Shown here in pieces: positions 6,580 through 55,501 of a stretch of DNA of 64,000 bases. How positions within the stretch are numbered: position 1 is the stretch's first letter; each line of letters opens with the position of its first letter. A model generated the notes under the pieces. It worked only from the letters and a program-made list of their open reading frames with translations, made no database searches and had not been told where the DNA came from. The stretch is from Nannobrachium achirus (Eukaryota; Chordata; Actinopteri; Myctophiformes; Myctophidae), in assembly GCA_963921795.1 (NCBI GenBank), contig OY997656.1, positions 57,738,827-57,802,826 on the forward strand. Reading direction: 5' to 3'. A program made the translations under genes and the position numbers.

Positions 6580-8478
6580 TTCTGTCCTTTCTCGTCCTTT
6601 CTGTAAAGAGATCGATGTTTAACGTCACTCTGTCCTTTCTGTTAGGCAGATAATGTGTTTAATGTCACTCTGTCCTTTCTGTTAGGCAGATAATGTGATT
6701 AACGTCCCTCTGTCCTTTCTGTTAGGCAGATAATGTGTTTAACGTCACTCTGTCCTTTCTGTTAGGCAGATAATGTGATTAACGTCACTCTGTCCTTTCT
6801 GTTAGGCAGATAATGTGTTTAACGTCCCTCTGTCCTTTCTGTTAGGCAGATAATGTGTTTAATGTCACTCTGTCCTTTCTGTTAGGCAGATAATGTGATT
6901 AACGTCCCTCTGTCCTTTCTGTTAGGCAGATAATGTGTTTAACGTCACTCTGTCCTTTCTGTTAGGCAGATAATGTGATTAACGTCACTCTGTCCTTTCT
7001 GTTAGGCAGATAATGTGTTTAACGTCACTCTGTCCTTTCTGTTAGGCAGATAATGTGATTAACGTCACTCTGTCCTTTCTGTTAGGCAGATAATGTGTTT
7101 AACGTCACTCTGTCCTTTCTGTTAGGCAGATAATGTGTTTAACGTCACTCTGTCCTTTCTGTTAGGCAGATAATGTGTTTAACGTCACTCTGTCCTTTCT
7201 GTTAGGCAGATAATGTGTTTAACGTCCCTCTGTCCTTTCTGTTAGGCAGATAATGTGTTTAACGTCCCTCTGTCCTTTCTGTTAGGCAGATAATGTGATT
7301 AACGTCACTCTGTCCTTTCTGTTAGGCAGATAATGTGTTTAACGTCACTCTGTCCTTTCTGTTAGGCAGATAATGTGTTTAACGTCACTCTGTCCTTTCT
7401 GTTAGGCAGATAATGTGTTTAACGTCCCTCTGTCCTTTCTGTTAGGCAGATAATGTGTTTAACGTCCCTCTGTCCTTTCTGTTAGGCAGATAATGTGTTT
7501 AACGTCACTCTGTCCTTTCTGTTAGGCAGATAATGTGTTTAACGTCACTCTGTCCTTTCTGTTAGGCAGATAATGTGTTTAACGTCACTCTGTCCTTTCT
7601 GTTAGGCAGATAATGTGTTTAACGTCACTCTGTCCTTTCTGTTAGGCAGATAATGTGTTTAACGTCCCTCTGTCCTTTCTGTTAGGCAGATAATGTGTTT
7701 AACGTCCCTCTGTCCTTTCTGTTAGGCAGATAATGTGTTTAACGTCCCTCTGTCCTTTCTGTTAGGCAGATAATGTGTTTAACGTCCCTCTGTCCTTTCT
7801 GTTAGGCAGATAATGTGTTTAACGTCCCTCTGTCCTTTCTGTTAGGCAGATAATGTGTTTAACGTCCCTCTGTCCTTTCTGTTAGGCAGATAATGTGTTT
7901 AACGTCCCTCTGTCCTTTCTGTTAGGCAGATAATGTGTTTAACGTCCCTCTGTCCTTTCTGTTAGGCAGATAATGTGTTTAACGTCCCTCTGTCCTTTCT
8001 GTTAGGCAGATAATGTGTTTAACGTCACTCTGTCCTTTCTGTTAGGCAGATAATGTGTTTAACGTCCCTCTGTCCTTTCTGTTAGGCAGATAATGTGTTT
8101 AACGTCCCTCTGTCCTTTCTGTTAGGCAGATAATGTGTTTAACGTCCCTCTGTCCTTTCTGTTAGGCAGATAATGTGTTTAACGTCCCTCTGTCCTTTCT
8201 GTTAGGCAGATAATGTGTTTAACGTCCCTCTGTCCTTTCTGTTAGGCAGATAATGTGTTTAACGTCCCTCTGTCCTTTCTGTTAGGCAGATAATGTGTTT
8301 AACGTCCCTCTGTCCTTTCTGTTAGGCAGATAATGTGTTTAACGTCCCTCTGTCCTTTCTGTTAGGCAGATAATGTGTTTAACGTCACTCTGTCCTTTCT
8401 GTTAGGCAGATAATGTGTTTAACGTCCCTCTGTCCTTTCTGTTAGGCAGATAATGTGTTTAACGTCCCTCTGTCCTCT
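6580..8478. repeat. 40-bp minisatellite, about 46 units, starting at the LRRN4CL stop codon
   Basis: The unit is GTTAGGCAGATAATGTGTTT followed by AACGTCCCTCTGTCCTTTCT. The gene-proximal unit overlaps the end of the minus-strand LRRN4CL coding sequence: its AACGTCCCTCTGTCCT is the complement of the last codons and the TAA stop. Two variant positions (C/A in CCCTC or CACTC, T/A in GTGTTT or GTGATT) are mixed at the far end and nearly fixed near the gene. The array would lie in the 3' UTR or just downstream. Confidence 0.95.
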
Positions 8479-9232: not shown

Positions 9233-9242
9233 TATGCTGGAA

Positions 9243-9263
9243 TCTGCAGATCAGAGAGAGACG
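9243..9263 (-). promoter_or_regulatory. Likely 3' splice site of a 5'-UTR intron of lrrn4cl
   Basis: Read on the minus strand, a CT-rich tract CGTCTCTCTCTGATCTGCAG ends in AG 11 bases before the first ATG. This is what a coding exon preceded by a non-coding first exon would show. The upstream exon was not identified. Confidence 0.55.
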
Positions 9264-22483: not shown

Positions 22484-23623
22484 ATGCGGTTGGTTTTGAC
22501 GTGGCTGTGGTTTGTGTCCGTGGTGTCGGTGCTAGTTGGAATGGCACTGGGGCCTCTGTTGGCCGGTTTCAGAAGGGACCCGCCGCAACACGAGGACACA
22601 CACACCGGGGGTCTCCTGTGTCCCCCCCCTGTTGTCCCCCCACCCAGTGCAGAGGACACACACACCGGGGGTCTGCAGTGTCCCCCCTCTGTTGTCCCCC
22701 CACCCAGGGTAGAGGACACACACACCGGGGGTCTGCAGTGTCCCCCCTCTGTTGTCCCCCTAGAGGACACACACACCGGTGGTCTCCTCTCACCTCCCCG
22801 TTGTCCCCTTCCAAAGTGTCGAGGACACAAACTCTTCTGCTCTCCTGTCCCATGTCTCCGTTGTCCCCTTCCAAAGTGTCGAGGACACGACGCGCACTCC
22901 AGTAGTCTCCTGTCTCGCGTCCCCTTCGTCCCCGTACCCAGCGAGGAGGCCGGGGCGGCGACGGAGTACGGCTTCCCCTCGTTGGCCGGCGTCAGGACCA
23001 GAAAGTCCTACGTGGTTTCCTACGACCACCGGACCCGCAACGCCTCCTGGGTGCTGGAGAGGTTGAGTCCCTCCGTCACCCAGTATGAGAGGAGGAGGAG
23101 GAACAACCACCGCTTCAAAGAAGACCACAGCGTTCACCCGTACCACCGGGCGACCCACGAAGACTACCGGGGCAGCGGCTTCGCCCGGGGCCACCTGGCC
23201 GCGGCGGGCAACCACAGGTGGAGCCGGGAGGCCGTGAACGACACGTTCTACCTGAGCAACGCCGTGCCACAGGATCCTCACATGAACAAGAACGCGTGGA
23301 ACGACCTGGAGAAGATGTGTCGCTCGCTGACCAAGCGCTACCGCAGCGTCTACGTCTACACGGGACCGCTGTACCTGCCCACCGAGGAGGTGGACGGGAG
23401 GCTGTACGTGAGGTACCAGGTGTTGCTGCCCAACCACGTTGCCGTGCCCACGCACCTCTTCAAGGTGTTGGTTCTGGAGCGCTGGGACGGCGGCGTGGAG
23501 CTACGCTCCTACGTTATGCCCAACGCGCCCGTCGAAGACAGGATCCCCCTGAGACGCTTCCGGGTTCCCGTAGAATACGTGGAGAGAGCCTCGGGACTGC
23601 TGTACGTTCCAAACAAATCATGA
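22484..23623 (+). CDS. endog: Endonuclease G-like DNA/RNA non-specific nuclease
   Basis: The frame has 379 codons plus stop. An upstream in-frame GTG at 22445 is not credited; the ATG at 22484 has a purine at -3. Residues 4-28 are hydrophobic and could be a membrane anchor or mitochondrial targeting segment. Residues about 37-136 are a Pro- and Cys-rich linker built of 20-residue repeats around EDTHTGGL and CPPSVVPPP. The nuclease domain starts near residue 155 (YGFPSLAG) and runs to the end, with EDYRGSGF, HLAAAGNHRWS, DTFYLSNAVPQ and NAWNDLEK, all characteristic of EndoG. The general-base His237 and the metal-site Asn268 are present, but the DRGH motif reads ARGH (Ala234). EndoG acts in mitochondria and can degrade DNA and RNA. 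No intron interrupts this copy, whereas mammalian ENDOG has several exons, so a retrocopy or paralogue is possible. A LINE begins about 22 bp after the stop. Confidence 0.85.
   Translation: MRLVLTWLWFVSVVSVLVGMALGPLLAGFRRDPPQHEDTHTGGLLCPPPVVPPPSAEDTHTGGLQCPPSVVPPPRVEDTHTGGLQCPPSVVPLEDTHTGGLLSPPRCPLPKCRGHKLFCSPVPCLRCPLPKCRGHDAHSSSLLSRVPFVPVPSEEAGAATEYGFPSLAGVRTRKSYVVSYDHRTRNASWVLERLSPSVTQYERRRRNNHRFKEDHSVHPYHRATHEDYRGSGFARGHLAAAGNHRWSREAVNDTFYLSNAVPQDPHMNKNAWNDLEKMCRSLTKRYRSVYVYTGPLYLPTEEVDGRLYVRYQVLLPNHVAVPTHLFKVLVLERWDGGVELRSYVMPNAPVEDRIPLRRFRVPVEYVERASGLLYVPNKS
22592..22895 (+). repeat. Coding minisatellite in the EndoG-like linker
   Basis: Units of about 60 bp (GAGGACACACACACCGGGGG, then CTGTTGTCCCCCCACCCAG) encode the EDTHTGG repeats. 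Later units (TTGTCCCCTTCCAAAGTGTC GAGGACAC) are read in a different frame, as PLPKCRGH. Length changes that are not multiples of three have therefore been tolerated and compensated. Confidence 0.85.
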
Positions 23624-26845: not shown

Positions 26846-27725
26846 ACTCATGAGTAATCAATAGAAAAAGAGTCATTTAAGTAGGCCACAGTATGAATGA
26901 ATGTGCTTGCTTAATGCTTAGTTTCCACCACAGAGGGTGAGCATCCTCGACATAACGCAGTGTGTGAGTAAACTGCTGGTTAGCTTCACTCACATCTAAC
27001 TATTCATTTACCGAATGTCTGTCTGTCCGTCCGCCGTCTGTCTGCTGGGTGACATCACTGATACTACCATGGTAACAATGCCCAACTGACATCACTGACT
27101 GACATCACTACAGTGCCCAAATTTGGAGATCACATCACAGATTGGCCTGGACACGGAACACCATATGAAATCATTTCTGGTCCACGTCAAACTGATAAGA
27201 AGCTAGATGCGCACGCAGGTCGGTACCAAATAATAGCGATTCAAAACAGTTGTCCTTTAAACCCCACCTCCATTCACCGTCAGAACAGAGGGAGCTCCTC
27301 ATGATCACCAGAGCGTCTACTGCTCGCCCAGCTGCAGTCCATGAAGCATCATTTATGCTCCGTCCTGCGACGGTGTCGCGCGCAGACCTCCAAGCTCAGA
27401 GCTGCTGCATTGGTGAGGCCATGTGAGAGGTTGAATGAACTGAAACCAGCACTCCCCAAAAGGTTTGGGGATCTGTTGGGAATTGATTACATGAAACAGC
27501 CATCTGTGCATTTAGTCTCAATGTTTGTAAACAAGAAATTGGTCTATAATATGGGCATAAAAGAGTGCCAGCCAGACAGACGGATACAGCGGGTATCGCA
27601 CAACTGGACATGGATGGTGACTGTTCTGCCCAACGGGCACTGGTCTGGGTTCTCCAACATTACTTCTGAGACTCCTACATTCAGTCCCTCATGGGCATGG
27701 CACACCCCCGGGCACAGGACTGGTG
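26846..27725. other. Intergenic DNA; no gene supported
   Basis: An open frame of about 130 codons at 27341-27733 has no recognisable motif and ends in the minisatellite. Near 26940-26990, GTGAGTAAACTGCTGGTTAGC resembles the 52-bp array unit that follows and may be a founder copy. Confidence 0.5.
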
Positions 27726-28497
27726 GTTCATAACTCAGTGAGTAAACTGGTGGTGAGCTTCTCTCACAGGACTGGTGGTTCATAACCCAGTGAGTAAACT
27801 GGTGGTGAGCTTCTCTCACAGGACTGGTGGTTCATAACCCAGTGAGTAAACTGGTGGTGAGCTTCTCTCACAGGACTGGTGGTTCATAACTCAGTGAGTA
27901 AACTGGTGGTGAGCTTCTCTCACAGGACTGGTGGTTCATAACTCAGTGAGTAAACTGGTGGTGAGCTTCTCTCACAGGACTGGTGGTTCATAACTCAGTG
28001 AGTAAACTGGTGGTGAGCTTCTCTCACAGGACTGGTGGTTCATAACTCAGTGAGTAAACTGGTGGTGAGCTTCTCTCACAGGACTGGTGGTTCATAACTC
28101 AGTGAGTAAACTGGTGGTGAGCTTCTCTCACAGGACTGGTGGTTCATAACCCAGTGAGTAAACTGGTGGTGAGCTTCTCTCACAGGACTGGTGGTTCATA
28201 ACTCAGTGAGTAAACTGGTGGTGAGCTTCTCTCACAGGACTGGTGGTTCATAACTCAGTGAGTAAACTGGTGGTGAGCTTCTCTCACAGGACTGGTGGTT
28301 CATAACTTAGTGAGTAAACTGGTGGTGAGCTTCTCTCACAGGACTGGTGGTTCATAACTCAGTGAGTAAACTGGTGGTGAGCTTCTCTCACAGGACTGGT
28401 GGTTCATAACTCAGTGAGTAAACTGGTGGTGAGCTTCTCTCACAGGACTGGTGGTTCATAACTCAGTGAGTAAACTGGTGGTGAGCTTCTCTCACAT
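27726..28497. repeat. 52-bp minisatellite, about 15 units
   Basis: The unit is ACTCAGTGAGTAAACTGGTG, GTGAGCTTCTCTCACAGGAC, then TGGTGGTTCATA. Units are nearly identical, differing mainly at CT/CC in AACTCAG or AACCCAG. Confidence 0.95.
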
Positions 28498-35762: not shown

Positions 35763-36592
35763 CAGGGGCGTCAATTGGGTGTGGCAGGGGTATGCAGCTA
35801 CCATACCCTGGGTCCAGGGGGGGAAATAAAAGTTACTTTTAAATATAAATCCATGAATGTCTCTTTGTCTATCTGCGCTGGTTATTATGTTGTTAAATTA
35901 CAGTAAAATAACTACAAATGCAAAATGTAACAAAATGGTCACTTTAACAAGGTATTATAATTATATTCTCGGTCCACACTTGTATTCTCCCCATCTTAAC
36001 AGAAAGGTATATTCCCAGGTTCCGCAGGTCAGCTGCACAGGTGCAATGCATTGTTGTTAATTGTGGCACGTTTACTAACATGCCAAGTTTGGCAACAGTC
36101 CGCCATTCCGAAACACCGCTATTCCGAAGCAGGGTTAGGGTTAGGTTTAGGGTTAGGGTTAGGGTTAGGGGTAGGGTTAGGGGTAGGGTTAGGGTTAGTT
36201 AGGGTTAGGGTTAGGGTTAGGGTAAGGGTTAGGGTTAGGGTTAGGGTTAGGGTTAGGGGTAGGGTTAGGGTTAGAAGTCAACGTTCGGAATAGCGGTGTT
36301 TCGGAATGGCGGGGTGTAACCGCCAAGTTTAGCTGCACTTGAACAACCATTCCAGGCTGCCAAATCCAGCCCAAGAAACCTGTGTAAAAAACTGTCAAAA
36401 CTTGTTTCTTTTTTTCAGACATTGTGAAAATAGCCGATCTACATACTCACAACGCCTCGCGCTGCGAGGCGTTGTGAGCATGTAGATCTGCTATTTTCAC
36501 AATAGAACCGTGTTATACAAAATGTAATGCCTCTTTTCCATGAGGACTCCCATCTTTGCCATACCCTAGCTTTTGCTGAACTGACGCCACTG
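35763..36592. mobile_element. CAGTGGCGTCA-type hAT-like element carrying a nested TTAGGG element
   Basis: It is in inverse orientation relative to 13179-13651, with ends CAGGGGCGTCAATTGGG and CTGAACTGACGCCACTG. Target duplication is GGAGAGTT (35755-35762) and GGTGAGTT (36593-36600). It contains the nested element 36091-36321 and the palindrome 36421-36504. The stretch CAATAGAACCGTGTTATACA beside the palindrome is shared with the otherwise unrelated CAGTGGTTCTCAACC family. Confidence 0.85.
36091..36321. mobile_element. TTAGGG-bearing inverted-repeat element, copy 2, nested
   Basis: The sequence is almost identical to 21068-21292. The flanking duplication GCCAAGTTT (36082-36090 and 36322-36330) is single in the related transposon at 13179-13651, which gives an apparent pre-insertion allele. 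Confidence 0.9.
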
Positions 36593-40556: not shown

Positions 40557-40760
40557 ATGTCGTCCCGGAGAGGAGGCTATGCGGCGGGCATGGAGGCCAA
40601 CGGGGCCTCGGGGAGCAGCGGCAGCTCGGCGGTCCACAACAACAGCAGCACCGGAGGATCCAACAGAAAGCAGAGCATCATCAACACCGCCAACAGGAGC
40701 CAGCAGGACTGCTATGAGCGCAAGATGGACAAGAACACTGCTTACCATGGAGCTAACCAG
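40557..40760 (+). CDS. C2H2 zinc-finger protein, coding exon 1 (with gene overview)
   Basis: The start ATG is in a strong context (GGCACCATGT). Exon 1 encodes 68 residues, Ser-, Gly- and Asn-rich (MSSRRGGYAAGM through YHGANQ), and ends in phase 0 at CAG, with donor GTAGGT. Four exons join in frame (204, 159, 409 and 1025 nt) into 598 residues. The layout is a disordered N-terminus, a helical coiled-coil segment (exons 2-3, about 76-150), a Gly-rich linker with a His run, five classical C2H2 fingers (about 406-538) and an acidic C-terminus. This is the pattern of the large teleost family of nuclear zinc-finger proteins with a short coiled-coil head instead of KRAB; such proteins are presumed DNA-binding regulators. 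I do not recognise the orthologue. The last 30 bases of this exon, with its donor, are the unit of the array that follows. Confidence 0.85.
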
Positions 40761-42680
40761 GTAGGTTAATATGAACATTATAAACATTATTAATATAGTT
40801 TATACTTTATACAAGAACACTGCTTACCATGGAGCTAACCAGGTAGGTTACTATTAATATTAATATTATTAATATAGTTTATACAAGAACACTGCTTACC
40901 ATGGAGCTAACCAGGTATTATTAATATAGTTAATATAGTTTATACAAGAACACTGCTTACCATGGAGCTAACCAGGTATTATTAATATAGTTAATATAGT
41001 TTATACAAGAACACTGCTTACCATGGAGCTAACCAGGTATTATTAATATAGTTAATATAGTTTATACAAGAACACTGCTTACCATGGAGCTAACCAGGTA
41101 TTATTAATATAGTTAATATAGTTTATACAAGAACACTGCTTACCATGGAGCTAACCAGGTATTATTAATATAGTTAATATAGTTTATACAAGAACACTGC
41201 TTACCATGGAGCTAACCAGGTATTATTAATATAGTTAATGTAGTTTATACAAGAACACTGCTTACCATGGAGCTAACCAGGTATTATTAATATAGTTAAT
41301 ATAGTTTATACAAGAACACTGCTTACCATGGAGCTAACCAGGTATTATTAATATAGTTAATATAGTTTATACAAGAACACTGCTTACCATGGAGCTAACC
41401 AGGTATTATTAATATAGTTAATATAGTTTATACAAGAACACTGCTTACCATGGAGCTAACCAGGTATTATTAATATAGTTAATATAGTTTATACAAGAAC
41501 ACTGCTTACCATGGAGCTAACCAGGTATTATTAATATAGTTAATATAGTTTATACAAGAACACTGCTTACCATGGAGCTAACCAGGTATTATTAATATAG
41601 TTAATATAGTGTATACAAGAACACTGCTTACCATGGAGCTAACCAGGTATTATTAATATAGTTAATATAGTTTATACAAGAACACTGCTTACCATGGAGC
41701 TAACCAGGTATTATTAATATAGTTAATATAGTTTATACAAGAACACTGCTTACCATGGAGCTAACCAGGTATTATTAATATAGTTAATATAGTTTATACA
41801 AGAACACTGCTTACCATGGAGCTAACCAGGTATTATTAATATAGTTAATATAGTTTATACAAGAACACTGCTTACCATGGAGCTAACCAGGTATTATTAA
41901 TATAGTTAATATAGTTTATACAAGAACACTGCTTACCATGGAGCTAACCAGGTATTATTAATATAGTTAATATAGTTTATACAAGAACACTGCTTACCAT
42001 GGAGCTAACCAGGTAGGTTAATATGAATATTATTAATATAGTTTATACAAGAACACTGCTTACCATGGAGCTAACCAGGTATTAATATTAATATTATAAA
42101 CATTATTAATATAGTTTATACACTGCTTACCATGGAGCTGGGAACCAGGTAGGTTCATATGAATATTATTGATTTGATTGATTGATTGAAGACTTTATTA
42201 GAAGATTGCATAGGAAAAGGTACAGTTTCATGACGGTACAGTTCACTGGTACACTGTCTACTAAAAGGAGATCCATGAAAAGACTAAGCTTATTTCCACT
42301 GGATAGTTTATACAAGAACACTGCCTTCCATGGAGCTAACCAGGTAGGTTACTATTAATATTAATGTTATTAATATAGTTTATACAAGAACACTGCCTTC
42401 CATGGAGCTAACCAGGTAGGTTACTATTAATATTAATGTTATTAATATAGTTTATACAAGAACACTGCCTTCCATGGAGCTAACCAGGTAGGTTACTATT
42501 AATATTAATGTTATTAATATAGTTAATACAAGAACACTGCTTACCATGGAGCTAACCAGGTAGGTTACTATTAATATAGTTTATATACACCCTACCATGG
42601 AGCTAACCAGGTATTATTAACATTATTAATATAGTTTATATACAGCCTACCATGGAGCTGGGAGCCAGGTAGGTTCATAA
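40761..42680 (+). repeat. 61-bp minisatellite copying the exon 1 end and its 5' splice site, about 29 copies
   Basis: The core unit is ACAAGAACACTGCTTACCAT, GGAGCTAACCAG (exon 1 end), then GTATTATTAATATAGTTAAT, ATAGTTTAT. Period 61 holds from the donor at 40915 to 42013; less regular copies precede and follow. Some copies keep the original GTAGGT donor. Extension of exon 1 past the true donor meets TAA within three codons (GTA GGT TAA). A LINE fragment (42163-42305, minus) has been inserted in the distal part. Confidence 0.95.
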
Positions 42681-42834
42681 TATGAATATTATTAACATTA
42701 TTAATATAGTTTATATTGGACAGCCTGCCATGGAGCTGGGAGCCTGCACATTGGTTAATAATATTAATATAGTTTATAATATAGGCCTACAGCCTACCCT
42801 GCAGCTGCTAACCACCAGGTTGGTTTGGTTATTC

Positions 42835-43080
42835 ATATTACAGGCGGCAGCCGCTCGAAACTGGTAACTTTTAAACCTATCCTCACCTCACCCTCACCCC
42901 TCTATTGTAAATACTTTTAAACCTATCCTCACCTCACCCTCACCCCTCTATTGTAAATACTTTTAAACCTAGCCTCACCTCACCCTCACCCCTCTATTGT
43001 AAATACTTTTTTACACAGTTTTTTTGTTCTTCTGTTTACGAGTGCTTCATTTTTTATTTTTGTTGCTGAAGATATCTATC
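42835..43080 (+). mobile_element. LINE 3' UTR fragment with small tandem repeat
   Basis: TTACAGGCGGCAGCCGCTCG followed by AAACTGGTAA matches the LINE end near 25360-25390. A 47-bp segment CTTTTAAACCTATCCTCACC onward is repeated three times. Confidence 0.65.
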
Positions 43081-43085
43081 TACAC

Positions 43086-43474
43086 CAGTGGTTCTCAACC
43101 TGTGGGTCGGGACCCCCAGGGGGGTCGCCAAATTTTTTGGGGGGTCCCCAGATGATTAGCTTAATGTGAAACATTGTTTTCTCACTCAACAGTAAACAAA
43201 CCAACAAAGTTTAAGTGTATAGAGGGTATCTGCACATTTGTAAAGTGACAATTTATTGACTTTTTAATACCTCTAAAATGACAAATTAGACATTGGCCAA
43301 ATTGTCAAATATTAGAGACTGAAATTGTGAAAATAGCTATTTTCACAATAGAACCGTGTTATACAAAATGTAATTCCTCAACTCTAACTCTTAGTGCTCG
43401 TCAGGGTGGGGGGGGTCCCCAGTTAAAATATTATTATTTTGGGGGTCACGGCCTGAAAAGGTTGAGAACCACTG
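43086..43474. mobile_element. CAGTGGTTCTCAACC-type hAT-like element with exact TSD
   Basis: The ends are CAGTGGTTCTCAACCTGTGG and GGTTGAGAACCACTG. Exact TSD ATCTACAC is at 43078-43085 and 43475-43482. The usual hairpin is collapsed to ATTGTGAAAATAG directly joined to CTATTTTCACAAT (43324-43350). This is the reference copy for the family in this window. Confidence 0.92.
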
Positions 43475-43494
43475 ATCTACACAATGGGTGCATT

Positions 43495-45437
43495 ATAATA
43501 CTGTTATAGAGAAATGAAGCTGGGACCCCCAACACTACTACATCATATCCATTATAATACTGTTATAGAGATAGAGAAATGAAGCTGGGACCCCCAACAC
43601 TACTACATCATATCCATTATAATACTGTTGTAGAGATAGAGAAATGAAGCTGGGACCCCCAACACTACTACATCATATCCATTATAATACTGTTATAGAG
43701 ATAGAGAGATGAAGCTGGGACCCCCAACACTACTACATCATATCCATTATAATACTGTTATAGAGATAGAGAGATGAAGCTGGGACCCCCAACACTACTA
43801 CATCATATCCATTATAATACTGTTGTAGAGATAGAGAAATGAAGCTGGGACCCCCAACACTACTACATCATATCCATTATAATACTGTTGTAGAGATAGA
43901 GAAATGAAGCTGGGACCCCCAGCACTACTACATCATATCCATTATAATACTGTTATAGAGATAGAGAGATGAAGCTGGGACCCCCAACACTACTACATCA
44001 TATCCATTATAATACTGTTATAGAGATAGAGAGATGAAGCTGGGACCCCCAACACTACTACATCATATCCATTATAATACTGTTATAGAGATAGAGAAAT
44101 GAAGCTGGGACCCCCAACACTACTACATCATATCCATTATAATACTGTTATAGAGATAGAGAAATGAAGCTGGGACCCCCAACACTACTACATCATATCC
44201 ATTATAATACTGTTATAGAGATAGAGAAATGAAGCTGGGACCCCCAACACTACTACATCATATCCATTATAATACTGTTATAGAGATAGAGAAATGAAGC
44301 TGGGACCCCCAACACTACTACATCATATCCATTATAATACTGTTATAGAGATAGAGAAATGAAGCTGGGACCCCCAACACTACTACATCATATCCATTAT
44401 AATACTGTTATAGAGATAGAGAAATGAAGCTGGGACCCCCAACACTACTACATCATATCCATTATAATACTGTTGTAGAGATAGAGAAATGAAGCTGGGA
44501 CCCCCAACACTACTACATCATATCCATTATAATACTGTTATAGAGATAGAGAAATGAAGCTGGGACCCCCAACACTACTACATCATATCCATTATAATAC
44601 TGTTGTAGAGATAGAGAAATGAAGCTGGGACCCCCAACACTACTACATCATATCCATTATAATACTGTTGTAGAGATAGAGAAATGAAGCTGGGACCCCC
44701 AACACTACTACATCATATCCATTATAATACTGTTGTAGAGATAGAGAAATGAAGCTGGGACCCCCAACACTACTACATCATATCCATTATAATACTGTTG
44801 TAGAGATAGAGAAATGAAGCTGGGACCCCCAACACTACTACATCATATCCATTATAATACTGTTGTAGAGATAGAGAAATGAAGCTGGGACCCCCAACAC
44901 TACTACATCATATCCATTATAATACTGTTATAGAGATAGAGAAATGAAGCTGGGACCCCCAACACTACTACATCATATCCATTATAATACTGTTATAGAG
45001 ATAGAGAAATGAAGCTGGGACCCCCAACACTACTACATCATATCCATTATAATACTGTTATAGAGATAGAGAAATGAAGCTGGGACCCCCAACACTACTA
45101 CATCATATCCATTATAATACTGTTGTAGAGATAGAGAAATGAAGCTGGGACCCCCAACACTACTACATCATATCCATTATAATACTGTTGTAGAGATAGA
45201 GAAATGAAGCTGGGACCCCCAACACTACTACATCATATCCATTATAATACTGTTGTAGAGATAGAGAAATGAAGCTGGGACCCCCAACACTACTACATCA
45301 TAACCATTATAATACTGTTATAGAGATAGAGAAATGAAGCTGGGACCCCCAACACTACTACATCATATGCATTATAATACTGTTGTAGAGATAGAGAAAT
45401 GAAGCTGGGACCCCCAACACTACTACATCATATCCAT
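43495..45437. repeat. 65-bp minisatellite, about 30 units (intron 1)
   Basis: The unit is TGTTATAGAGATAGAGAAAT, GAAGCTGGGACCCCCAACAC, TACTACATCATATCCATTAT, then AATAC, with rare TTGTAGAG and GAGAGATG variants. It starts about 20 bp after the hAT-like element 43086-43474. Confidence 0.96.
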
Positions 45438-45745
45438 TTTATTCCCATTGATTTCATCGATGGCTTCATGGATTGACAGCAATATCATCAGTGTGTTTTC
45501 AGAGCCAGACCTTTTGGGAAGCTTCAATGCTTCCCAAAATTGATTGGCACAATGTGTATAATAATATATACACACGTATCTTTCACACTCTGTTGCTGAT
45601 AAGGAATGCCAAGGGAATGTATTTGTCTGCTCACTGCCATTTGAAAAGATTTAGTGCGGCCATGCAGAGTTGTACTCCTGTACATACAAATGTCTCTGCA
45701 AAATGTGTACTGTATACTAAATGTATATACATTGTGCAGACATTA

Positions 45746-46058
45746 AAGGGGAAGACCACCCATTTTCAATGTTGAACTATGTCATTAATATACCTTAGAG
45801 GAGTGTGTATACCTTAGAGGAGTGTGGAAATTAAAGAAAAAAAGTTCCCCCTCTTCTGTGTTGCCTAGAACTGGAGGATTGATTTTGGGGTTTGTATTGC
45901 AAATCACAACATGATGACATCACACCGTTGTACCTTACAAATACAAACCCCCAAAATCAATCCTCCAGTTCTAGGCAACACAGAAGAGGGGGAACTTTTT
46001 AAAGGTATATAATGACATAGTTCAATATTGAAAATGGGTGGTCTTCCCCTTTAATGTC
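45746..46058. mobile_element. TTAA-type foldback element
   Basis: Nearly the whole element is an inverted repeat. TTAAAGGGGAAGACCACCC pairs with GGGTGGTCTTCCCCTTTAA, and AACTGGAGGATTGATTTTGG with its complement, around a centre with ATGATGACATCAC. TTAA is at both ends. Confidence 0.88.
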
Positions 46059-46327
46059 TCTGTATACTTGGTTGTGCCTTCTACACAGCTTCACTGCTGA
46101 AACGTTTCCTCAGGGGAATTGATCAATGATTATCACCATTCCTTTTTAGCATTCGCTCCAGGCATTCTTTTTTTTTTTTAAATCTCTTTAATTCTTACAA
46201 ATAAAGTCTCCAGACAGTTTTTCGAAACAGTTTTTCCACAATCAAAGCACAAGAGTTCAGTCTGCTGCCAGCTGCAGGCACACTGAACAGTTTTTTAAAA
46301 TGTTTTTTCTTACTTAATACTTTAGTT

Positions 46328-46641
46328 CAGGGGTTTTTAAAGTGGTTGACGGGGCACCCTGGGGTGACGGGGCACCCTGGGGTGCCGCGAGATAATTTGA
46401 TAATATTTGAAATGTATTTGGACATTTAAAAATATATTTAGTATCATTTTAAACTTTAAGTACAAAGTTATTTTTCGTCAGTTCTAACCAAAATGGCTGT
46501 TATCTTGCTTTCCTCGCAACATAATCGCTAAAATATGCTATAAATATAAGGTGCTGAGAGGAATATAATAACGAAGGGGTGCCTCAGATGAAAATGATAT
46601 TTATAGGGGTGCCCTGAGCCAAAGAAGTTTGTGAACCCTTG
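46328..46641. mobile_element. hAT-like element without hairpin, exact TSD
   Basis: This is a shortened relative of 18410-19002, from CAGGGGTTTTTAAAGTGG to TTTGTGAACCCTTG. Exact TSD CTTTAGTT is at 46320-46327 and 46642-46649. The central palindrome has been lost with surrounding sequence. Confidence 0.85.
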
Positions 46642-46698
46642 CTTTAGTTTATATAATGTAGGCATTTAGCAGAGGACAGAGGTATGTATCCTATATGG

Positions 46699-47187
46699 CA
46701 GGGGTTTCAAAGTGGGTGACGGGGCACCCTGGGGTGCCGGGGCACCCTGGGGTGCCGTGAGATAATTTGATAATATTTGGAATTTATTTGGACACTTAGT
46801 GTCATTTTAAACTTGAAGTACAAAGTTATTTTCAGTCAGTTCTAACCAAAATGGCTATTATCTCAACGTTTTCCTTGCAACATAATCACTAAAATATCAT
46901 CACTGTCGGGCAGAAACCTCTGTCGCACAAAACTAGTGAAAACAGCCGATCTACAAGCACACAAATCGCAAGTGTGTGCTTTTAGATCTGCTGTTTTCAC
47001 TAGTTTAGTTCATTTTATAGATGATAAATACAAAACGAACGGTTTTGGACATACAAGGTTTCCACCCGACAACGTCGATATGCTATAAATATAAGGTGCT
47101 GGGAGTGAGAATTATAATGTAGGGGTGCCTCGGATTAAAAAAAATATTTATGGGGTGACCTGAGACAAAAAAAGGAACCTCTGCTTG
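46699..47187. mobile_element. hAT-like element with hairpin, 99 bp upstream of exon 2
   Basis: Same family as 18410-19002. It starts CAGGGGTTTCAAAGTGGG; TSD CTATATGG is at 46691-46698 and 47188-47195, with four additional bases before the right copy. The palindrome is at 46929-47006. Confidence 0.83.
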
Positions 47188-47286
47188 CTATATGGACCCT
47201 AGGAAGACTAGCTGTGGCCTCTTCGCCAGCTAATGATGATTCCTGAAGTCGGTGACGTCGGATGCGTTTTGGGTCTGTGTCCCCAG

Positions 47287-47445
47287 GGTAACATGACGGT
47301 GACGTCCCTGAAGTCTCGGCTGGCGCCCACCATCCAGACGGCCATGTCTGCCTGCGTGGACACCCTGCTGGGGGAGGTGGTCCTGGTGCTCAACGAGACC
47401 CAGCAGGAGCTGCTCAACAAGGAGCAGGAGAACCAGAGGCTCAAG
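47287..47445 (+). CDS. Zinc-finger protein, coding exon 2 (coiled-coil head)
   Basis: The acceptor GTGTCCCCAG is followed by GGTAACATG. The exon codes 53 residues in phase 0 (GNMTVTSLKSRLAPTI ... ENQRLK), amphipathic and rich in Leu, Glu and Gln. It continues as the coiled-coil segment in exon 3. The donor is CTCAAG followed by GTGAGG. The last 15-24 bases and the donor are repeated downstream. Confidence 0.82.
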
Positions 47446-47725
47446 GTGAGGGTTAGGGGAGAGCAGGAGAACCAGAGGCTCAAGGTGAGGGTTAGGGGAG
47501 GTGGTCAACAAGGAGCAGGAGAACCAGAGGCTCAAGGTGAGGGTTAGGGGAGAGCAGGAGAACCAGAGTCTCAAGGTGAGGGTTAGGGGAGGTGGTCAAC
47601 AAGGAGCAGGAGACCCAGAGGCTCAAGGTGAGGGTTAGGGGAGAGCAGGAGAACCAGAGGCTCAAGGTGAGGGTTAGGGGAGGTGGTCAACAAGGAGCAG
47701 GAGAACCAGAGGCTCAAGGTGAGGC
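47446..47725 (+). repeat. Alternating 39/52-bp array copying the exon 2 end and its donor, 7 donors in all
   Basis: Donors CTCAAG plus GTGAGG occur at 47446, 47485, 47537, 47576, 47628, 47667 and 47719. The spacing alternates 39, 52, 39, 52, 39, 52. Each unit carries GAGCAGGAGAACCAGAGGCT (one copy has GAGTCT), the end of exon 2. Use of the second donor would add 13 in-frame residues (VRVRGEQENQRLK). Later donors shift the frame until two 52-bp and further units accumulate. Confidence 0.93.
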
Positions 47726-47772
47726 CTGTCACTGTTCCACACCTGGAAAGGGTTTGGAATTAAACCCATTTT

Positions 47773-47993
47773 AGGAACAAACAAGGTAGCTCGCACTCAC
47801 TTTCTTCGTCGCTCCAATTTTCATTTAGCAAGCAGCAAAAAATAGACGTTTCGACCAGTGAGGTCTTCTTCAGTATCGACACGACCTACTGAAGAAGACC
47901 TCACTGGTCGAAACGTCTATTTTTTGCTGCTTGCTAAATAAAAATTGGAGCGACCAAGAAAGTGAGTGTGAGCTACCTTGTTTGTTCTTAGTA
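47773..47993. mobile_element. Foldback element of about 220 bp
   Basis: Arms pair almost perfectly: GAACAAACAAGGTAGCTCGC with its complement at the far end, and GACGTTTCGACCAGTGAGGT with ACCTCACTGGTCGAAACGTC. The loop is only about 20 bp. No coding capacity. Confidence 0.9.
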
Positions 47994-48543
47994 TTACTGC
48001 ACTGTCAGTTACAGCTCAGCACAGGAGGATGTGCGTTATTTTTTCTCTAAATGTTATTAATCAAATGTCTTGTAAAATAGCAGATGTAGCAAAAGTAGCA
48101 GATCCACAAGATCGAAACGCGCCACGATTTTGATGGGAGGGGGCATGCGTGCAAGTACCTAAATGTGTCTTTTTAGACACAATAAGCAGCTGATTTCTGC
48201 CCATGAAAGATTGCTGTGTGTTTTTGGAATGGTGTCTGAAAAGGCATATTTAGCCACTTGTACGCATGCCCCCCACCCACTGAAATCAAAATCTCTAAAA
48301 TGGCTAAAATGATAGAAAGCAGTGAATGAAAACATTTTAACACTCCTCTTTTCTTTTCTCTCATTACAATCTCAAATATGAACCCTGGTTGTAAAAAGAA
48401 AAAAAAAAAACAAGTTGTCCTTTAACACTGGTTCAAGAGCCTCATTATTGCCCCGTATATGCTTGCTATAGGCCTGGAAATGGGATACAATGCTTTGGAA
48501 ACGAGAAGAAATGTAAGAAATGTCATTGTGGAACACTTTAGGC
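47994..48543. other. Intron 2 sequence, degenerate hairpin and inverted blocks
   Basis: A decayed copy of the palindrome lies near 48071-48126 (AAAATAGCAGATGTAGC, AAAGTAGCAGATCCACAAG). A block near 48160-48260 (TGTCTTTTTAGACACAATAA and a later GCATATTTAGCCACTTGT) resembles the large foldback element at 61915-62850. Confidence 0.5.
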
Positions 48544-48905
48544 TAGGGGTGGGCGATATGGCGATAATTATCGTTGAGACGATACAATGTCTCCATGATA
48601 TGCCTTTTCAGAGGTATCATATATATATAATGTTAACTCTATTATTATTAATATTAACTCTGACAGTATACACATGAAACCAAATGGACCTGTAAGGGTC
48701 CATTTGGTTTCATTTGTATACTGTCAGAGTTACATATTTGTAAAGTTCAATTTAGACCTCCAAAAAGGAACCCAGAGAGTCTAGTTTTTGTCAAGTAACT
48801 TGAAAAATAACCATAAAAACCAACGCGAAAAAGAATCGTGATAAAACCGTGATACAGCTTGGGAAAATATGGTGATATAGTATTTTTCCATATGGCCCAC
48901 CCCTG
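48544..48905. mobile_element. TAGGGGTGGGCGATATGG-type hAT-like element with central palindrome
   Basis: The ends are TAGGGGTGGGCGATATGG and CCATATGGCCCACCCCTG. The central palindrome 48640-48735 pairs AACTCTGACAGTATACACAT and ACCAAATGGACC with their complements. Its right end is the sequence that makes up most of the 40-bp array that follows. The left flank CTTTAGGC resembles CTTCAGGT, the exon 3 acceptor. Confidence 0.8.
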
Positions 48906-48937
48906 GGTTAGGGGAGGTGGTGCTGTATATAAATATG

Positions 48938-50636
48938 GTGATATAGTATTTTTCCATATGGCCCACCCCTGCTTCAGGTGATATAGTATTTTTCCATATG
49001 GCCCACCCCTGCTTCAGGTGATATAGTATTTATCCATATGGCCCACCCCTGCTTCAGGTGATATAGTATTTTTCCATATGGCCCACCCTGCTTCAGGTGA
49101 TATAGTATTTTTCCATATGGCCCACCCCTGCTTCAGGTGATATAGTATTTATCCATATGGCCCACCCCTGCTTCAGGTGATATAGTATTTTTCCATATGG
49201 CCCACCCCTGCTTCAGGTGATATAGTATTTATCCATATGGCCCACCCCTGCTTCAGGTGATATAGTATTTTTCCATATGGCCCACCCCTGCTTCAGGTGA
49301 TATAGTATTTTTCCATATGGCCCACCCTGCTTCAGGTGATATAGTATTTTTCCATATGGCCCACCCCTGCTTCAGGTGATATAGTATTTATCCATATGGC
49401 CCACCCCTGCTTCAGGTGATATAGTATTTTTCCATATGGCCCACCCCTGCTTCAGGTGATATAGTATTTATCCATATGGCCCACCCCTGCTTCAGGTGAT
49501 ATAGTATTTTTCCATATGGCCCACCCCTGCTTCAGGTGATATAGTATTTTTCCATATGGCCCACCCTGCTTCAGGTGATATAGTATTTTTCCATATGGCC
49601 CACCCTGCTTCAGGTGATATAGTATTTTTCCATATGGCCCACCCTGCTTCAGGTGATATAGTATTTTTCCATATGGCCCACCCCTGCTTCAGGTGATATA
49701 GTATTTTTCCATATGGCCCACCCTGCTTCAGGTGATATAGTATTTTTCCATATGGCCCACCCTGCTTCAGGTGATATAGTATTTTTCCATATGGCCCACC
49801 CCTGCTTCAGGTGATATAGTATTTTTCCATATGGCCCACCCTGCTTCAGGTGATATAGTATTTTTCCATATGGCCCACCCTGCTTCAGGTGATATAGTAT
49901 TTTTCCATATGGCCCACCCCTGCTTCAGGTGATATAGTATTTTTCCATATGGCCCACCCCTGCTTCAGGTGATATAGTATTTTTCCATATGGCCCACCCT
50001 GCTTCAGGTGATCTAGTATTTTTCCATATGGCCCACCCTGCTTCAGGTGATATAGTATTTTTCCATATGGCCCACCCCTGCTTCAGGTGATCTAGTATTT
50101 TTCCATATGGCCCACCCTGCTTCAGGTGATATAGTATTTTTCCATATGGCCCACCCTGCTTCAGGTGATATAGTATTTTTCCATATGGCCCACCCCTGCT
50201 TCAGGTGATATAGTATTTTTCCATATGGCCCACCCTGCTTCAGGTGATATTGTATTTTTCCATATGGCCCACCCTGCTTCAGGTGATATAGTATTTTTCC
50301 ATATGGCCCACCCCTGCTTCAGGTGATATAGTATTTTTCCATATGGCCCACCCTGCTTCAGGTGATATAGTATTTTTCCATATGGCCCACCCTGCTTCAG
50401 GTGATATAGTATTTTTCCATATGGCCCACCCCTGCTTCAGGTGATATAGTATTTTTCCATATGGCCCACCCTGCTTCAGGTGATATAGTATTTTTCCATA
50501 TGGCCCACCCTGCTTCAGGTGATATAGTATTTTTCCATATGGCCCACCCTGCTTCAGGTGATATAGTATTTTTCCATATGGCCCACCCCTGCTTCAGGTG
50601 ATATTGTATTTTTCCATCTGGCCCACCCTGCTTCAG
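48938..50636 (+). repeat. 39/40-bp minisatellite copying the exon 3 acceptor, about 42 units
   Basis: The unit is GTGATATAGTATTTTTCCAT, ATGGCCCACCCCTG (right end of the hAT-like element at 48544), then CTTCAG. Units differ by CCCC/CCC and TTTTT/TTTAT. The last unit ends CTTCAG at 50636, directly before exon 3. Any upstream acceptor would give GTG ATA TAG, a stop at the third codon. Confidence 0.96.
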
Positions 50637-51045
50637 GTGCGTCTGGAGGTGTCGGAGCGGGAGCTGAAGACGCTGCAGGAGTGCCTGTGCTCGGCCCAGA
50701 AGCTGATCGACCAGCTGCAGATCACCTACTCCGGGAGCCAGGGCGTGAGCCAGTCTGTGTTCGCCCCGCTCACCTCCATGAGCTCCATGGGCGGGCCGGG
50801 GGGCATGGGGGAGCGGCCCGGGGACCACCAGGGGGCCCGGGGGGGCGGGGGCGGCGGCGTGAACGGGGCCGGCGGCGTGGACCTGGGCGGCCTGGCGGGC
50901 CAGGTGGACGAGAGCCTGCATGGGTTCGAGTCCCGCGACGACTACAAGATGTGTCAGCTGTCCATCCAGCCGGACGGCTCCGTCACCAACCACGCCATGG
51001 ACTCCTACTCCAACGCTCACATGCAGTGTGACGCCAACAGGACAG
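50637..51045 (+). CDS. Zinc-finger protein, coding exon 3
   Basis: It begins GTGCGTCTGGAGGTGTCG in phase 0 and continues the coiled-coil (VRLEVSERELKTLQ ... SAQKLIDQLQ, residues about 122-151). Then come a Met-, Gly- and Ser-rich linker (FAPLTSMSSMGGPGGMG, GGGGGGVNGAGGVDLGG) and a more conserved-looking patch (DDYKMCQLSIQPDGSV, SYSNAHMQCDANRT). The exon ends in phase 1 at GACAG with donor GTACAT. Use of this exon is supported by open frame across both junctions and by the frame fit with exons 2 and 4. Confidence 0.82.
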
Positions 51046-51054
51046 GTACATGTA

Positions 51055-51260
51055 TAGATAGATAGATAGATAGATACCTTTATTATCCCAAGGGGGAAAT
51101 TTAGTTGTCCAGTAGTAGCACAGCAGTATACAGTTATTTACAAAGTTACAGAGACGTAAGAAAGATAGATAAGAGGGGAAAAAAACAAAACAAAGACAAG
51201 AGCAGTACAGTACCAATAAGGAGAAGGTGCATCAATAGAGGGGGCGAATAATATATAAGT
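51055..51260 (-). mobile_element. LINE 3' end with GATA tail, 9 bp after the exon 3 donor
   Basis: The plus strand shows GATA units and then ACCTTTATTATCCCAAGGGG, the same minus-strand terminus as 23881-24330. It lies just inside intron 3. Confidence 0.75.
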
Positions 51261-51282
51261 ATATATATATATATGTATGTAG

Positions 51283-52243
51283 TAGTGTTGCCCGATCCCG
51301 ATCACGTGATCGGATCGGCCGCCGATATGGCCGTTTTTATAAGATCGGAGATCGGGGAAAAAAAATCGAAAAAAAAAAAAAGTTTTTTTTTTTTTTTTTT
51401 TCAAAAAAATATTTTCTGGGAGTACTGAAAGTTACAGGTAAGGTGAATGCGATATGAAATGTAAGCTTACCATAATCACAGTAATCCTTAATCATTTTCA
51501 ATCATATTCAAGGGCTTTTGGAGAAATGAGACAGACAGAGCACTGCAGAGGGAAGGTGATTGTGTCAGACTCTGTGTACAGCTGGCAGCTGATGCCAATA
51601 AGTAGTAATTGGCCCCTTGCTAATGGATCAAAGGAAGGCAATTATGTCTCTGTGCACTGTCAACTAGCTCAGTGGTTCTCAACCTGTGGGTCGGGACCCC
51701 CAGGGGGGTCCTCAAATTATTTTGGGGGGGTCCCCAGATGATTAACTTAATGTGCAACATTGTTTTCTCTCTCAACAGTAAACAAATCAACATAAAGTTT
51801 AAGTGTATAGAGGGTATCTGCACATTTCGAAAGTGAAAAATTAAGGACTTTTTAATACCTCTAAAATGACAAATTAAACATTGGCCAAATTGTCAAATAT
51901 TAAAGCCAGAAATTGTGAAAATAGCAGATCTACATGCTCACAACTCCTCGCGTTGCGAGGCGTTGTGAGCATGTAGATCTGCTATTTTCACAATAGAACC
52001 GTGTTATACAAAATATACTTCCTCAACTCTTCAGGGTCGGGGGTCCCCAGTTAAAATATGATTATTTTGGGGGTCACGGCCTGAAAAGGTTGAGAACCAA
52101 GTGATAGAATGAATAGAATTTTTTTTTTCTTCTTAATGCCTTGCCAAAAGATCGGATCGGGAAAGATCGGGATCGAATCGGAAGCAATAATATTTGATCG
52201 GTATCGGATCGGGAGCAAAAAAACCCTGATCGGGGCATCCCTA
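51283..52243. mobile_element. TAGTGTTGCCCGATC-type hAT-like element with exact TSD and nested element
   Basis: The ends are TAGTGTTGCCCGATC and GATCGGGGCATCCCTA. Exact TSD GTATGTAG is at 51275-51282 and 52244-52251. A CAGTGGTTCTCAACC-family copy is nested inside at about 51670-52099, with the full palindrome 51911-51994. Confidence 0.88.
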
Positions 52244-52680
52244 GTATGTAGTATGTAGTATGTTAGAACACTACTCCAACAGAACAGGTACATGTATGTA
52301 GTATGTTAGAACACTACTCCAACAGGCCAGGTACATGTATGTAGTATGTTCTACAACACTACTCCAACAGGCCAGGTACATGTATGTAGTATGTTCTACA
52401 ACACTACTCCAACAGGCCAGGTACATGTATGTAGTATGTTCTACAACACTACTCCAACAGGCCAGGTACATGTATGTAGTATGTTAGAACACTACTCCAA
52501 CAGGCCAGGTACATGTATGTAGTATGTTCTACAACACTACTCCAACAGGCCAGGTACATGTATGTAGTATGTTAGAACACTACTCCAACAGGCCAGGTAC
52601 ATGTATGTAGTATGTTACAACACTACTCCAACAGGCCAGGTACATGTATGTAGCATGTTCTACAACACTACTCCAACACT
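52244..52680 (+). repeat. Array copying the exon 3 end and its donor, about 9 further donors
   Basis: The unit is CACTACTCCAACAGGCCAG, donor GTACATGTATGTAGTATGTT, then CTACAA or AGAA. It derives from the exon 3 end (TACTCCAAC ... CCAACAGGACAG). In most units the 24 bases between two CCAAC words are deleted, but the last copy near 52670 still has CTCCAACACTCACATGCAGTG, as in the exon. Confidence 0.92.
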
Positions 52681-52689
52681 CACATGCAG

Positions 52690-52950
52690 TGCTCTGACTA
52701 GCAGACGCTTTTAATCCAAAGCGACTTGCAATAAGCAGGTAATACATCACTATAATAAGCAAGATAATATGTCAGTACATCAACAACAATACAACAAATG
52801 CATAGGAATATCAATCTAGAAAAACAATAACATAGGTAGACCACGCACAAAACTTTTCTAAAACCTAAAAATGCTATCTAGCTTCATGTGTGGTCATCGA
52901 GGGAAGGGGAGTGTTAAAGTAGTGCTATGGGTTTAGGTGGAGTCTGACAG
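52690..52950 (-). mobile_element. LINE 3' end (L2/CR1-like) splitting the last array unit
   Basis: Same element as 33385-33650 (CAGACGCTTTTAATCCAAAG, GTTTAGGTGGAGTCTGA). It lies between TCTGAC at both sides. The array unit resumes afterwards as AGACCAGGTACATGG, showing insertion into the array. Confidence 0.72.
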
Positions 52951-53432
52951 ACCAGGTACATGGACAATACTGCTGCCTTCAGTTGTCTTGTCATTTGTTT
53001 ATAGCAAACCTATGACAAATGGGTCACTGATTCTTAAAAAAGGACTGTGAAAATCTCTGTTTTCAACCTGGTGTCTATATTTCGGGCATGTCATTATAGG
53101 CCTTTGCTAGATCAGCTATTTTTCAACATAGGGCTACATACACATGTAATGATTATTATGGGTAATTGATGAGCACAAGCAGTTTTCAACTTAGAGAATT
53201 GCTTTATTTAGAAGTAACAACAGTGTTTAGTTTATTAGCAACTTGTTATGAAAAAGAAAATAGAACAACATATCCAAGAAACAAGATGCTATGCAAAGAA
53301 AGGGAGATTATTTGGAATCCTTTCCCTAATGGAATTAAGTGTTCTGTGATTAACAGGTTGACAGTTAAATAAGCACAACAAGTTAACAAGGGGAGAAGCT
53401 GCGCTATAAAGTGTAAAATATGGATGTAGACA

Positions 53433-53939
53433 CAGGGTTCCCACGGTCATGAAATTCCTGGAAATATTTTGAAATTAGAAAAATATTTTTCCAGTATTGG
53501 AAAAGTTTTGGAATGTATCAAGGGTCCTGGAAGGTCCTGGAAAAAATAGCTATGCATTGTCTTTGGTTATTGATTTTGTTAATACCTCTGAAATTACAAA
53601 TTAAACATTGGCCAAATTGTCTCAGAGGCAGAAATTGTGAAAATAGCCGATCTACATTTTAGATTCAGAATAGCATGTGGATCTGCTATTTTCACAATAG
53701 AACCGTGTTATACAAAATTCCTCAACTCTTAGTGCTCGTCAGGGTGCCGGGGTCCCCAGTTAAAACATGATTATTTCGGGGTCACGGCCTGAAAACACTA
53801 CACTACCTTATCTTTGGGCATTGCACATAGGAGTAAGCGACCTGTTATTGAGCTGAATTATTGTTATATAGTCCTGGAAATTGGGTTAAATATTCTGGAA
53901 AGGTTTTGGAAATGAATTGGTAAAAATGTGTGGGAACCC
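53433..53939. mobile_element. CAGGGTTCCCACGG-type hAT-like element with internal cassette
   Basis: The ends are CAGGGTTCCCACGGTCATG and ATGTGTGGGAACCC, with TSD TGTAGACA at 53425-53432 and 53940-53947. The interior (about 53575-53795, palindrome 53633-53699) is the CAGTGGTTCTCAACC-family cassette without that family's termini. Confidence 0.8.
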
Positions 53940-53984
53940 TGTAGACAGCAGTAGTTTTAACAGGAACACTGCAGCAGTATTAAA

Positions 53985-54456
53985 CCCATTTAGGCCACAG
54001 CGCGGCACCGCGCTGCGAGCTTGTAGATCTGCTATTTTTGAAAAATCATGATATTTCTTTGCAAGTCTTAGAATATACCTATTTAAAAGCGAACATTTGT
54101 AACTCAAATATTTGCTTCTGGGTGGTCCCTGGAACAACATGTTTTGAGATGGGGGTCCGCGGCCAAATACCTGTAATTTTGGGGGTCCTTGACATGAAAA
54201 AGTTTGAGAACAACATGATTTAGAAGAAGGATTTGGAAGTCTGGTCAAAGATCAGGTCAAAGATATTCAAATACTTGCACTCATTTTCACTATTTTTCAA
54301 AAATAGCAGATCTACCAGCTCGCAGCACGGCACTCGGTGCCGCGCTGTGAGCTTGTATATCTGCTATTTTTCAATAGTTAAAGCATAAAATAATGGTTAA
54401 AGTGGTTCAAATCTAACGCGACTCGAGCGCGTTCCAGGTATTTGAGAGTTAACAGG
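53985..54456. mobile_element. Composite element with two hairpins just upstream of exon 4
   Basis: A half-lost palindrome lies at 53996-54050 and a full one at 54291-54376, facing each other around GATGGGGGTCCGCGG sequence. The right end CGTTCCAGGTATTTGAGAGTT is 20 bp before the exon 4 acceptor. Same family as 60484-60935. The sequence TTAACAGGAACACTG flanks it on both sides (53956-53970 and 54449-54463). Confidence 0.72.
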
Positions 54457-54476
54457 AACACTGTGTTGTGTTGTAG

Positions 54477-55501
54477 ATGACAGACAGCAGCAGGCTTCGG
54501 GAGGCGGCGGAGGCTCCAGGTTCGAGATCAAAGAGGAGCAGGGCGGGGCCGGGGGGGTGCAGGGGCAGCAGGCCGGCAGGAAGGACGGGGGGGTGGGGGG
54601 GGGCATGCGGGGGGGCGACGGAGGAGGAGAGCAGGGCGACCTGGGGGGCTACATCCAGCCTAGCGGAGGAGGAGGAGAGGAGGGCCCGTCGTCCCGGTCC
54701 TTCACGTACCCGCTGCGCCACCCCAAGCGCGGCGGCCCCGACGGCGGGCAGAAGCCGCTCGCCGTCTCCAGGACTTCGGCGGCGGGCGGGACGCGGGCGG
54801 ACGGCGTGTCGTCGCCGGGCCGCGCCGCCGCCAACAACCACCACCACCACGACGACTCCTCGGCGTCCTCCAACAAGGGCGGCGAGTCGGACGGCCCCAC
54901 CAGCGACCGGCCGCACCACTGCCTGGAGTGCGGCAAGACCTTCCGCCTCATCTCCTCGCTGAAGAAGCACATCCGCATCCACACGGGCGAGAAGCCCTAC
55001 CCGTGCGGCGTGTGCGGCCGCCGCTTCCGCGAGTCGGGCGCCCTGAAGACGCACCTGCGCATCCACACGGGCGAGAAGCCCTACTCGTGCTCGGAGTGTG
55101 GCAACTCGTTCCGCCACCTGGACGGCCTGCGCAAGCACCGGCGCACGCACACGGGCGAGAAGCCCTACGTGTGCGCCGTGTGCGGCAAGCGGCTGTCGCG
55201 CCTGCAGCACCTCAAGCACCACCAGCTCATCCACACGGGCGAACGGCCCTGCTGCTGCCCCTTCTGCAACCGCAGCTTCAAGGAGCCCGCCGCGCTGCGC
55301 AAGCACGTGCGCACGCACCGCGAGGAGGCGGGCCACATGGGCCTGGTGGGCGGCGTGGGCGGCGGGGAGGACCCCGGCGACGCCGACGCCATGGACGACG
55401 CCATCAACAGCCTGCACCCCGCCGCCCCCTCCCCCACCCAGATGAGGTTCGGGGAGTGGGGTGCCGAGGACGACGACGCCTCCGTGGTCGACTGCGTGTA
55501 G
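54477..55501 (+). CDS. Zinc-finger protein, coding exon 4 with five C2H2 fingers
   Basis: The acceptor TGTTGTGTTGTAG joins in phase 1: the split codon G plus AT gives Asp258. About 145 residues of low-complexity linker follow (Gly-rich, an HHHH run, a possible sumoylation-like FEIKEE). Then five fingers run at about 406-426, 434-454, 462-482, 490-510 and 518-538, each with Cys2-His2 spacing C-X2-C-X12-H-X3-H and TGEKP or TGERP linkers. Examples are CLECGKTFRLISSLKKH and CPFCNRSFKEPAALRKH. All zinc ligands are intact. An acidic tail (EDPGDADAMDD, EDDDASVVDCV) ends at TAG. Fingers of this type bind DNA in the nucleus; the target is unknown. GC content is very high, which opens long antisense frames that are not genes. 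Confidence 0.93.

Follow-up and report, generated by a model that had tools for sequence, protein, structure and literature searches.

The window considered here is a stretch of 64 kb (64,000 nucleotides) from the genome of the myctophid fish Nannobrachium achirus, at C19:57738827-57802826 in a 1.66-Gb assembly; C19 is a contig of 61.7 Mb, and the window lies some 3.9 Mb from its end. Its plus strand carries a C2H2 zinc-finger gene, the four coding exons of which have GT/AG borders and join into a single frame of 599 amino acids; tandem arrays occupy 44% of this gene, and several of them carry copies of its splice junctions. No paralogue was found when exons 1-3 were searched against the whole genome; the search returned those exons themselves and a single weak match. 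The exons and the principal arrays are as follows.

40557..40760, plus strand: exon 1; its donor, AACCAG|gtaggt, seeded the donor-1 array
40858..42752, plus strand: donor-1 arrays, with units of 61, 72, 55 and 75 bp (Tandem Repeats Finder (TRF) rows 40858-42084, 42303-42577 and 42542-42752)
43506..45438, plus strand: array in intron 1, about 30 copies of 65 bp; touches no junction and is a counter-example
47287..47445, plus strand: exon 2
47406..47724, plus strand: donor-2 array, alternating 39 and 52 bp; seven donor copies AAG|GTGAGG; the unit contains GGGTTAGGGG
48937..50639, plus strand: acceptor-3 array of 39/40 bp; 43 copies of CTTCAGGTG including the true one; adjoins the junction
50637..51045, plus strand: exon 3
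52251..52678, plus strand: donor-3 array of 43/45 bp; nine copies of CAGGTACATG; 1.2 kb past the exon
54477..55501, plus strand: exon 4, with the C2H2 fingers and the stop codon

Make-up of the junction arrays

The arrays were called with TRF and their copies counted by anchors, the exon's own copy included; both bear out the copy numbers given for donors 1-3 and acceptor 3 in a preliminary description of this DNA. The anchors number 30 at donor 1 (spaced mostly at 61 bp, also at 72 bp and others), seven at donor 2 and 11 at donor 3 (one at the exon, nine in the array and one at 52953). By reading, the donor-1 units each hold about 32 bp of exon, those of donor 2 from 24 to about 37 bp, and those of donor 3 about 17 bp, with 24 bp of exon absent between two CCAAC repeats. 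The earlier statement that every unit holds genuine exon edge is therefore right for the three donors and fails for acceptor 3: about 33 of the 40 bp of that unit consist of a dispersed-repeat end, joined to CTTCAG, and its exon portion is GTG at most. A copy of the same repeat end lies outside the array near 48873-48909, and another locus (L021) matches it over 31 bp at 93.5%; being mostly dispersed-repeat end, the acceptor-3 unit was rejected as an exon edge. A dispersed repeat also sits inside the donor-1 arrays near 42166-42305, and others lie between exon 3 and the donor-3 array. The main rows of the four junction arrays show 97-98% matches, with 95% for donor 3, and all have the form of ordinary minisatellites, with head-to-tail units of about 15-100 bp in several homogenised copies. 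That several junctions of this gene became minisatellites separately is correct.

The reading frames bear on which copies could be used. Read-through at donor 1 meets a stop at once and at donor 3 within seven codons; at donor 2 the second copy is in frame, adding 13 amino acids, and the third is out of frame and followed by a stop. An upstream acceptor-3 copy would, by reading, begin GTG ATA TAG. Among the 29 further copies of donor 1, 20 read CAGGTATTA and six retain CAGGTAGGT, with three offset and not properly scored; in other words, the +5 G present in the outermost donor is gone from 20/29 internal copies and kept in six, a loss that is expected if the outermost donor alone is used. The donor-2 and donor-3 copies show no comparable change at +5 G. 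A simple matrix rates all donor-2 copies as strong and most internal donor-1 copies as weak. To judge from the sequence, the outermost copy is probably the working junction. Tolerance by way of that junction, as proposed earlier, is plausible, with read-through past the outermost donor mostly stopping early.

Placing six unit-length seeds uniformly over 14.9 kb gives 0.12 expected on junctions, as against three that are exon-derived (P 1.6e-4) or four when acceptor 3 is included (P 2.3e-6); these values carry no correction for the choice of this gene. Six arrays are counted in the gene, and two of them, both in intron 1 with units of 65 bp and 46 bp, touch no junction.

Exon-edge arrays in other genes

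The earlier focus on the splice junctions of one gene describes something real there and is too narrow. We rejected the zinc-finger gene as a special case, since exon-edge arrays recur in other genes, on 7 of 127 exon edges scored and in a tetraspanin and a BTB exon. The scored edges come from 60 loci (three batches of 20) found through matches to three protein families, with kinase and myosin exons and flanks mostly of 300-350 bp. L049-L053 were picked for their nearness to chromosome ends, and the other 55 were hand-chosen, not exhaustively, from the partial-domain rows; most of them have no internal stops, and repeated identical rows were skipped. The edges are those internal to the profile, domain-end edges being omitted (among them the acceptor of L033). 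Arrays of at least 100 bp occupy 5/63 donors and 2/64 acceptors; with a threshold of at least 45 bp the count becomes 9/127, the two extra (L053 and L056) being 20-bp repeats. Units span an edge in 7 of 11 arrays, a status assigned by reading, versus 1.82 expected under uniform placement within each array's own locus (P 4e-4); when one array is taken per locus, 6/8 do so (P 6e-4). The arrays in question, with exon content by reading, are listed here.

L049, myosin exon: acceptor-spanning 125-bp array (78 bp of exon) and donor-spanning 44-bp array
L050, tyrosine-kinase donor: about 62 bp of exon and a CA run per unit
L051, kinase donor: about 29 bp of exon
L064, myosin donor: 27 bp of exon and a telomere-like run
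L069, kinase acceptor: about 17 bp of exon
L083, kinase donor: 14 bp of exon and a telomere-like run

Outside this formal count, a 35-bp pyrimidine-rich array at 1-240 of L033 stops 5 bp short of the acceptor in a kinase exon that we take to be LATS-like.

Starting instead from arrays, we searched the whole genome for triplets of the donor motif CAGGTRAG at 30-60-bp spacing, and retrieved the flanks of four among the first five distinct places listed for it: two are coding exons and two are noncoding. One coding exon, with about 80 donor copies, encodes a tetraspanin (PF00335 at 6.6e-7, under the curated cut-off; tetraspanin-10 in the PDB at 1.8e-11), and its array is open in one frame over the stretch retrieved; the other is a BTB exon (PF00651 at 2.5e-8) with about six donor copies. 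In all, tandem units that each carry a donor from the border of an exon stand at donors 1-3 of the zinc-finger gene and at L049, L050, L051, L064, L083, L089 and L090. As a separate observation, the two noncoding flanks (L091 and L092) belong to one 55-bp donor-containing unit that is arrayed at C1:5545517, 5897661 and 6051608; as both retrieved flanks are noncoding, it resembles a dispersed repeat carrying its own array.

Some units contain telomere-like filler. A telomere-like 9-mer occurs in 3/10 exon-derived arrays (L089 and L090 left out, and the whole array span searched for seven of the ten), with a background of 0.29% of 60-bp windows in a comparison set of 20 stretches, spread over six contigs and totalling 200 kb, and of 2% in this window. 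By reading, the copies at L064 and at donor 2 restart, after identical filler, at two different exon positions. Array births also look denser near chromosome ends. Of the loci no farther than 6.5 Mb from the end of a contig, 3/8 are positive, versus 3/52 of those farther in (P 0.027, the near-end loci being partly picked). Further, of 22 places with AAGGTRAG triplets on C1 and C3, scored by eye, ten lie within 5 Mb of an end (3/10 and 7/12), where 2.66 are expected (P 1e-4). The window itself holds 22 arrays in 64 kb (17.5%) versus 17 in the 200 kb (3.8%) of the comparison set.

Splice junctions are not the sole sites of such arrays, for the window also has one array at a stop codon and one in frame within a coding region.

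6616..8476, minus strand: array of a 40-bp unit in 46.5 copies; the unit takes in the stop codon of the open reading frame 8462-9250 along with some 15 of its coding bases
22592..22888, plus strand: 60-bp array (TRF row 22592-22760 with 2.8 copies, plus weaker rows) that keeps the frame of a nuclease open reading frame (PF01223)

The former displays the same habit at a coding end other than a splice site; its minus-strand reading frame has no Pfam match and is presumably LRRN4CL-like. The latter is near the start of a single-exon endonuclease reading frame. Elsewhere in the window, 15 copies of 52 bp at 27713-28496 start with the last codons and stop of a reading frame without a Pfam match, and arrays at 15316-15633 and 10507-10673 resemble, by reading, the tails of tRNA-like short interspersed nuclear elements (SINEs), one of them with AATAAA in each unit. 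Runs of the telomere hexamer AGGGTT, of about 23 copies each, are located at 21108-21245, 26650-26779 and 36131-36274.

Proposed origin and tolerance of the arrays

We lean towards the view that minisatellites are often born at exon edges, for the most part at 5' splice sites, by a duplication of the break-repair type that is tolerated as the outermost junction still works. Setting out from what is observed, namely the arrays, their exon content, their recurrence in other genes, the excess of seeds on edges and the outcome of read-through in the zinc-finger gene, we infer the following course of events, including the break repair, the identity of the spliced copy and the absence of function. 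A short stretch across an exon edge (about 14 to 78 bp of exon by reading, with some intron) would be duplicated in tandem, initially by inaccurate break repair or template switching, at times with telomere-like filler at the point of duplication. Ordinary minisatellite processes, slippage or unequal exchange, would then extend the duplicate into the intron. The copy next to the intact exon would stay the working junction, leaving the internal copies free to drift, and the array would be tolerated because that copy still gives the full protein; no function would be required of it. We are more hesitant about a wider form of this proposal, which we regard as possible and somewhat doubtful: that genome-wide about one in 20 exon edges is now a minisatellite, edges (5' splice sites above all) being hotspots of breaks or template switches at which repair, sometimes with telomeric repeats, duplicates the junction, so that in thousands of genes a single working splice site would stand next to a row of spare ones.

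Several results weigh against a preference for exon edges. Rotating the arrays round the zinc-finger gene covers at least three of its six junctions in 47% of trials (mean 2.6), and coverage of introns 100-250 bp in from the edges is 8/127 at each offset versus 7/127 at the edges themselves. Without the five near-end loci only 3/5 arrays span an edge (P 0.028), and the size of the edge effect rests on 60 loci of three protein families, with arrays partly assigned by hand reading. The whole-genome motif counts disagree with one another when set against mirrored controls, with 2767 matches versus 1591 for CAGGTRAG and 1466 versus 1825, hence no excess, for AAGGTRAG; these are counts of copies and not of arrays. 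Two of the four flanks retrieved are noncoding, 7/10 exon-derived arrays are without telomere-like filler, and no ancestral empty site was seen.

A part of these results would suit another account, by which minisatellites arise anywhere in the array-rich chromosome ends and those that happen to include an edge survive, with no preference for edges. Arrays are about four times as dense in the window as in the 20 spread stretches, edge and intron coverage are alike, the rotation gives P 0.47, and AAGGTRAG triplets do not exceed their mirror. However, uniform local placement predicts far fewer edge-spanning arrays than the seven of 11 found, and the 0.12 of six seeds expected in the zinc-finger gene compares with three or four. 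Arrays grow into introns whatever their origin, so that neither coverage nor rotation is a test of seeding; the case for an exon-edge preference rests on seeds and not on coverage. The earlier judgement that chance placement is unlikely is not supported by coverage and is supported by seed placement. We consider the account by chance and tolerance unlikely. Seeding could alternatively be tied to transcription or splicing, with paused polymerase, R-loops or structures in the nascent RNA at 5' splice sites leading to breaks or slippage. The lead of donors over acceptors among the scored edges, together with the three zinc-finger donors, would agree with this; yet that lead is small, and the stop-codon and in-frame coding arrays of the window need no splicing, for which reasons we give it a still lower probability than chance with tolerance.

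Two further explanations carry much less weight in our assessment. The trains of spare splice sites might be functional decoys that tune splicing or vary the protein, as the uniformly strong donor-2 copies, the second of which keeps the frame, and the open frame of the tetraspanin array could suggest. The mostly weak internal copies of donor 1, the early stops on read-through at donors 1 and 3, and the wide variation in copy number and unit make such a role very improbable. Likewise, long arrays are often misassembled and one assembly was examined here, but the units are gene-specific, the copies carry point variants, dispersed repeats lie within or next to the arrays, and cases are spread over C1, C2, C5, C8, C15, C19 and C21; hence, we find an assembly artefact scarcely credible.

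Significance and known systems

If exon edges are indeed hotspots at which tandem duplications arise, there would be a link between splicing signals, the repair of breaks and the origin of minisatellites. New splice sites and variable repeats within genes could then come directly from such edges, which would also offer a route for introns to grow from their borders.

The preliminary description knew of no system of this kind. A human minisatellite reportedly supplies several splice donors (Turri, 1995), in a gene that we take to be 6-16/IFI6. The likeness is close in that its units provide splice donors at an exon border; it concerns one gene, whereas the present arrays occur in many genes and involve acceptors too. 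The single-gene case thus has a precedent; no genome-wide description of arrays at splice sites was found in a literature search that left most subscription papers outside. Likewise, the accessible parts of papers on chicken MUC2 and the earthworm describe no such exon-edge arrays.

Other comparisons draw on the portions of the sources available to us. Tandem duplication of AGGT stretches has been put forward as a model of intron gain (PMC4974935), and resembles our arrays in that a piece of exon with AG|GT is repeated in tandem; that model makes a new intron, whereas here existing introns are lengthened from their edges. Telomeric repeats are inserted at double-strand breaks (PMC2246262, PMC7215372, PMC8537989), with flanking duplication at 6/130 rodent and 4/25 primate loci among the mammalian insertions (PMC2246262). 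A telomere-like insert at a repaired break may be common to both situations, but in the present case it is part of the amplified exon-edge unit, and in 3/10 arrays only. Another fish, Nothobranchius furzeri, likewise has a minisatellite-rich genome with a high content of tandem repeats (PMC2688266), though the repeats described there are centromeric and not at exon edges. Taken together, a single-gene precedent is in print, and the part that appears new is the recurrence of such arrays at exon edges of several unrelated genes.

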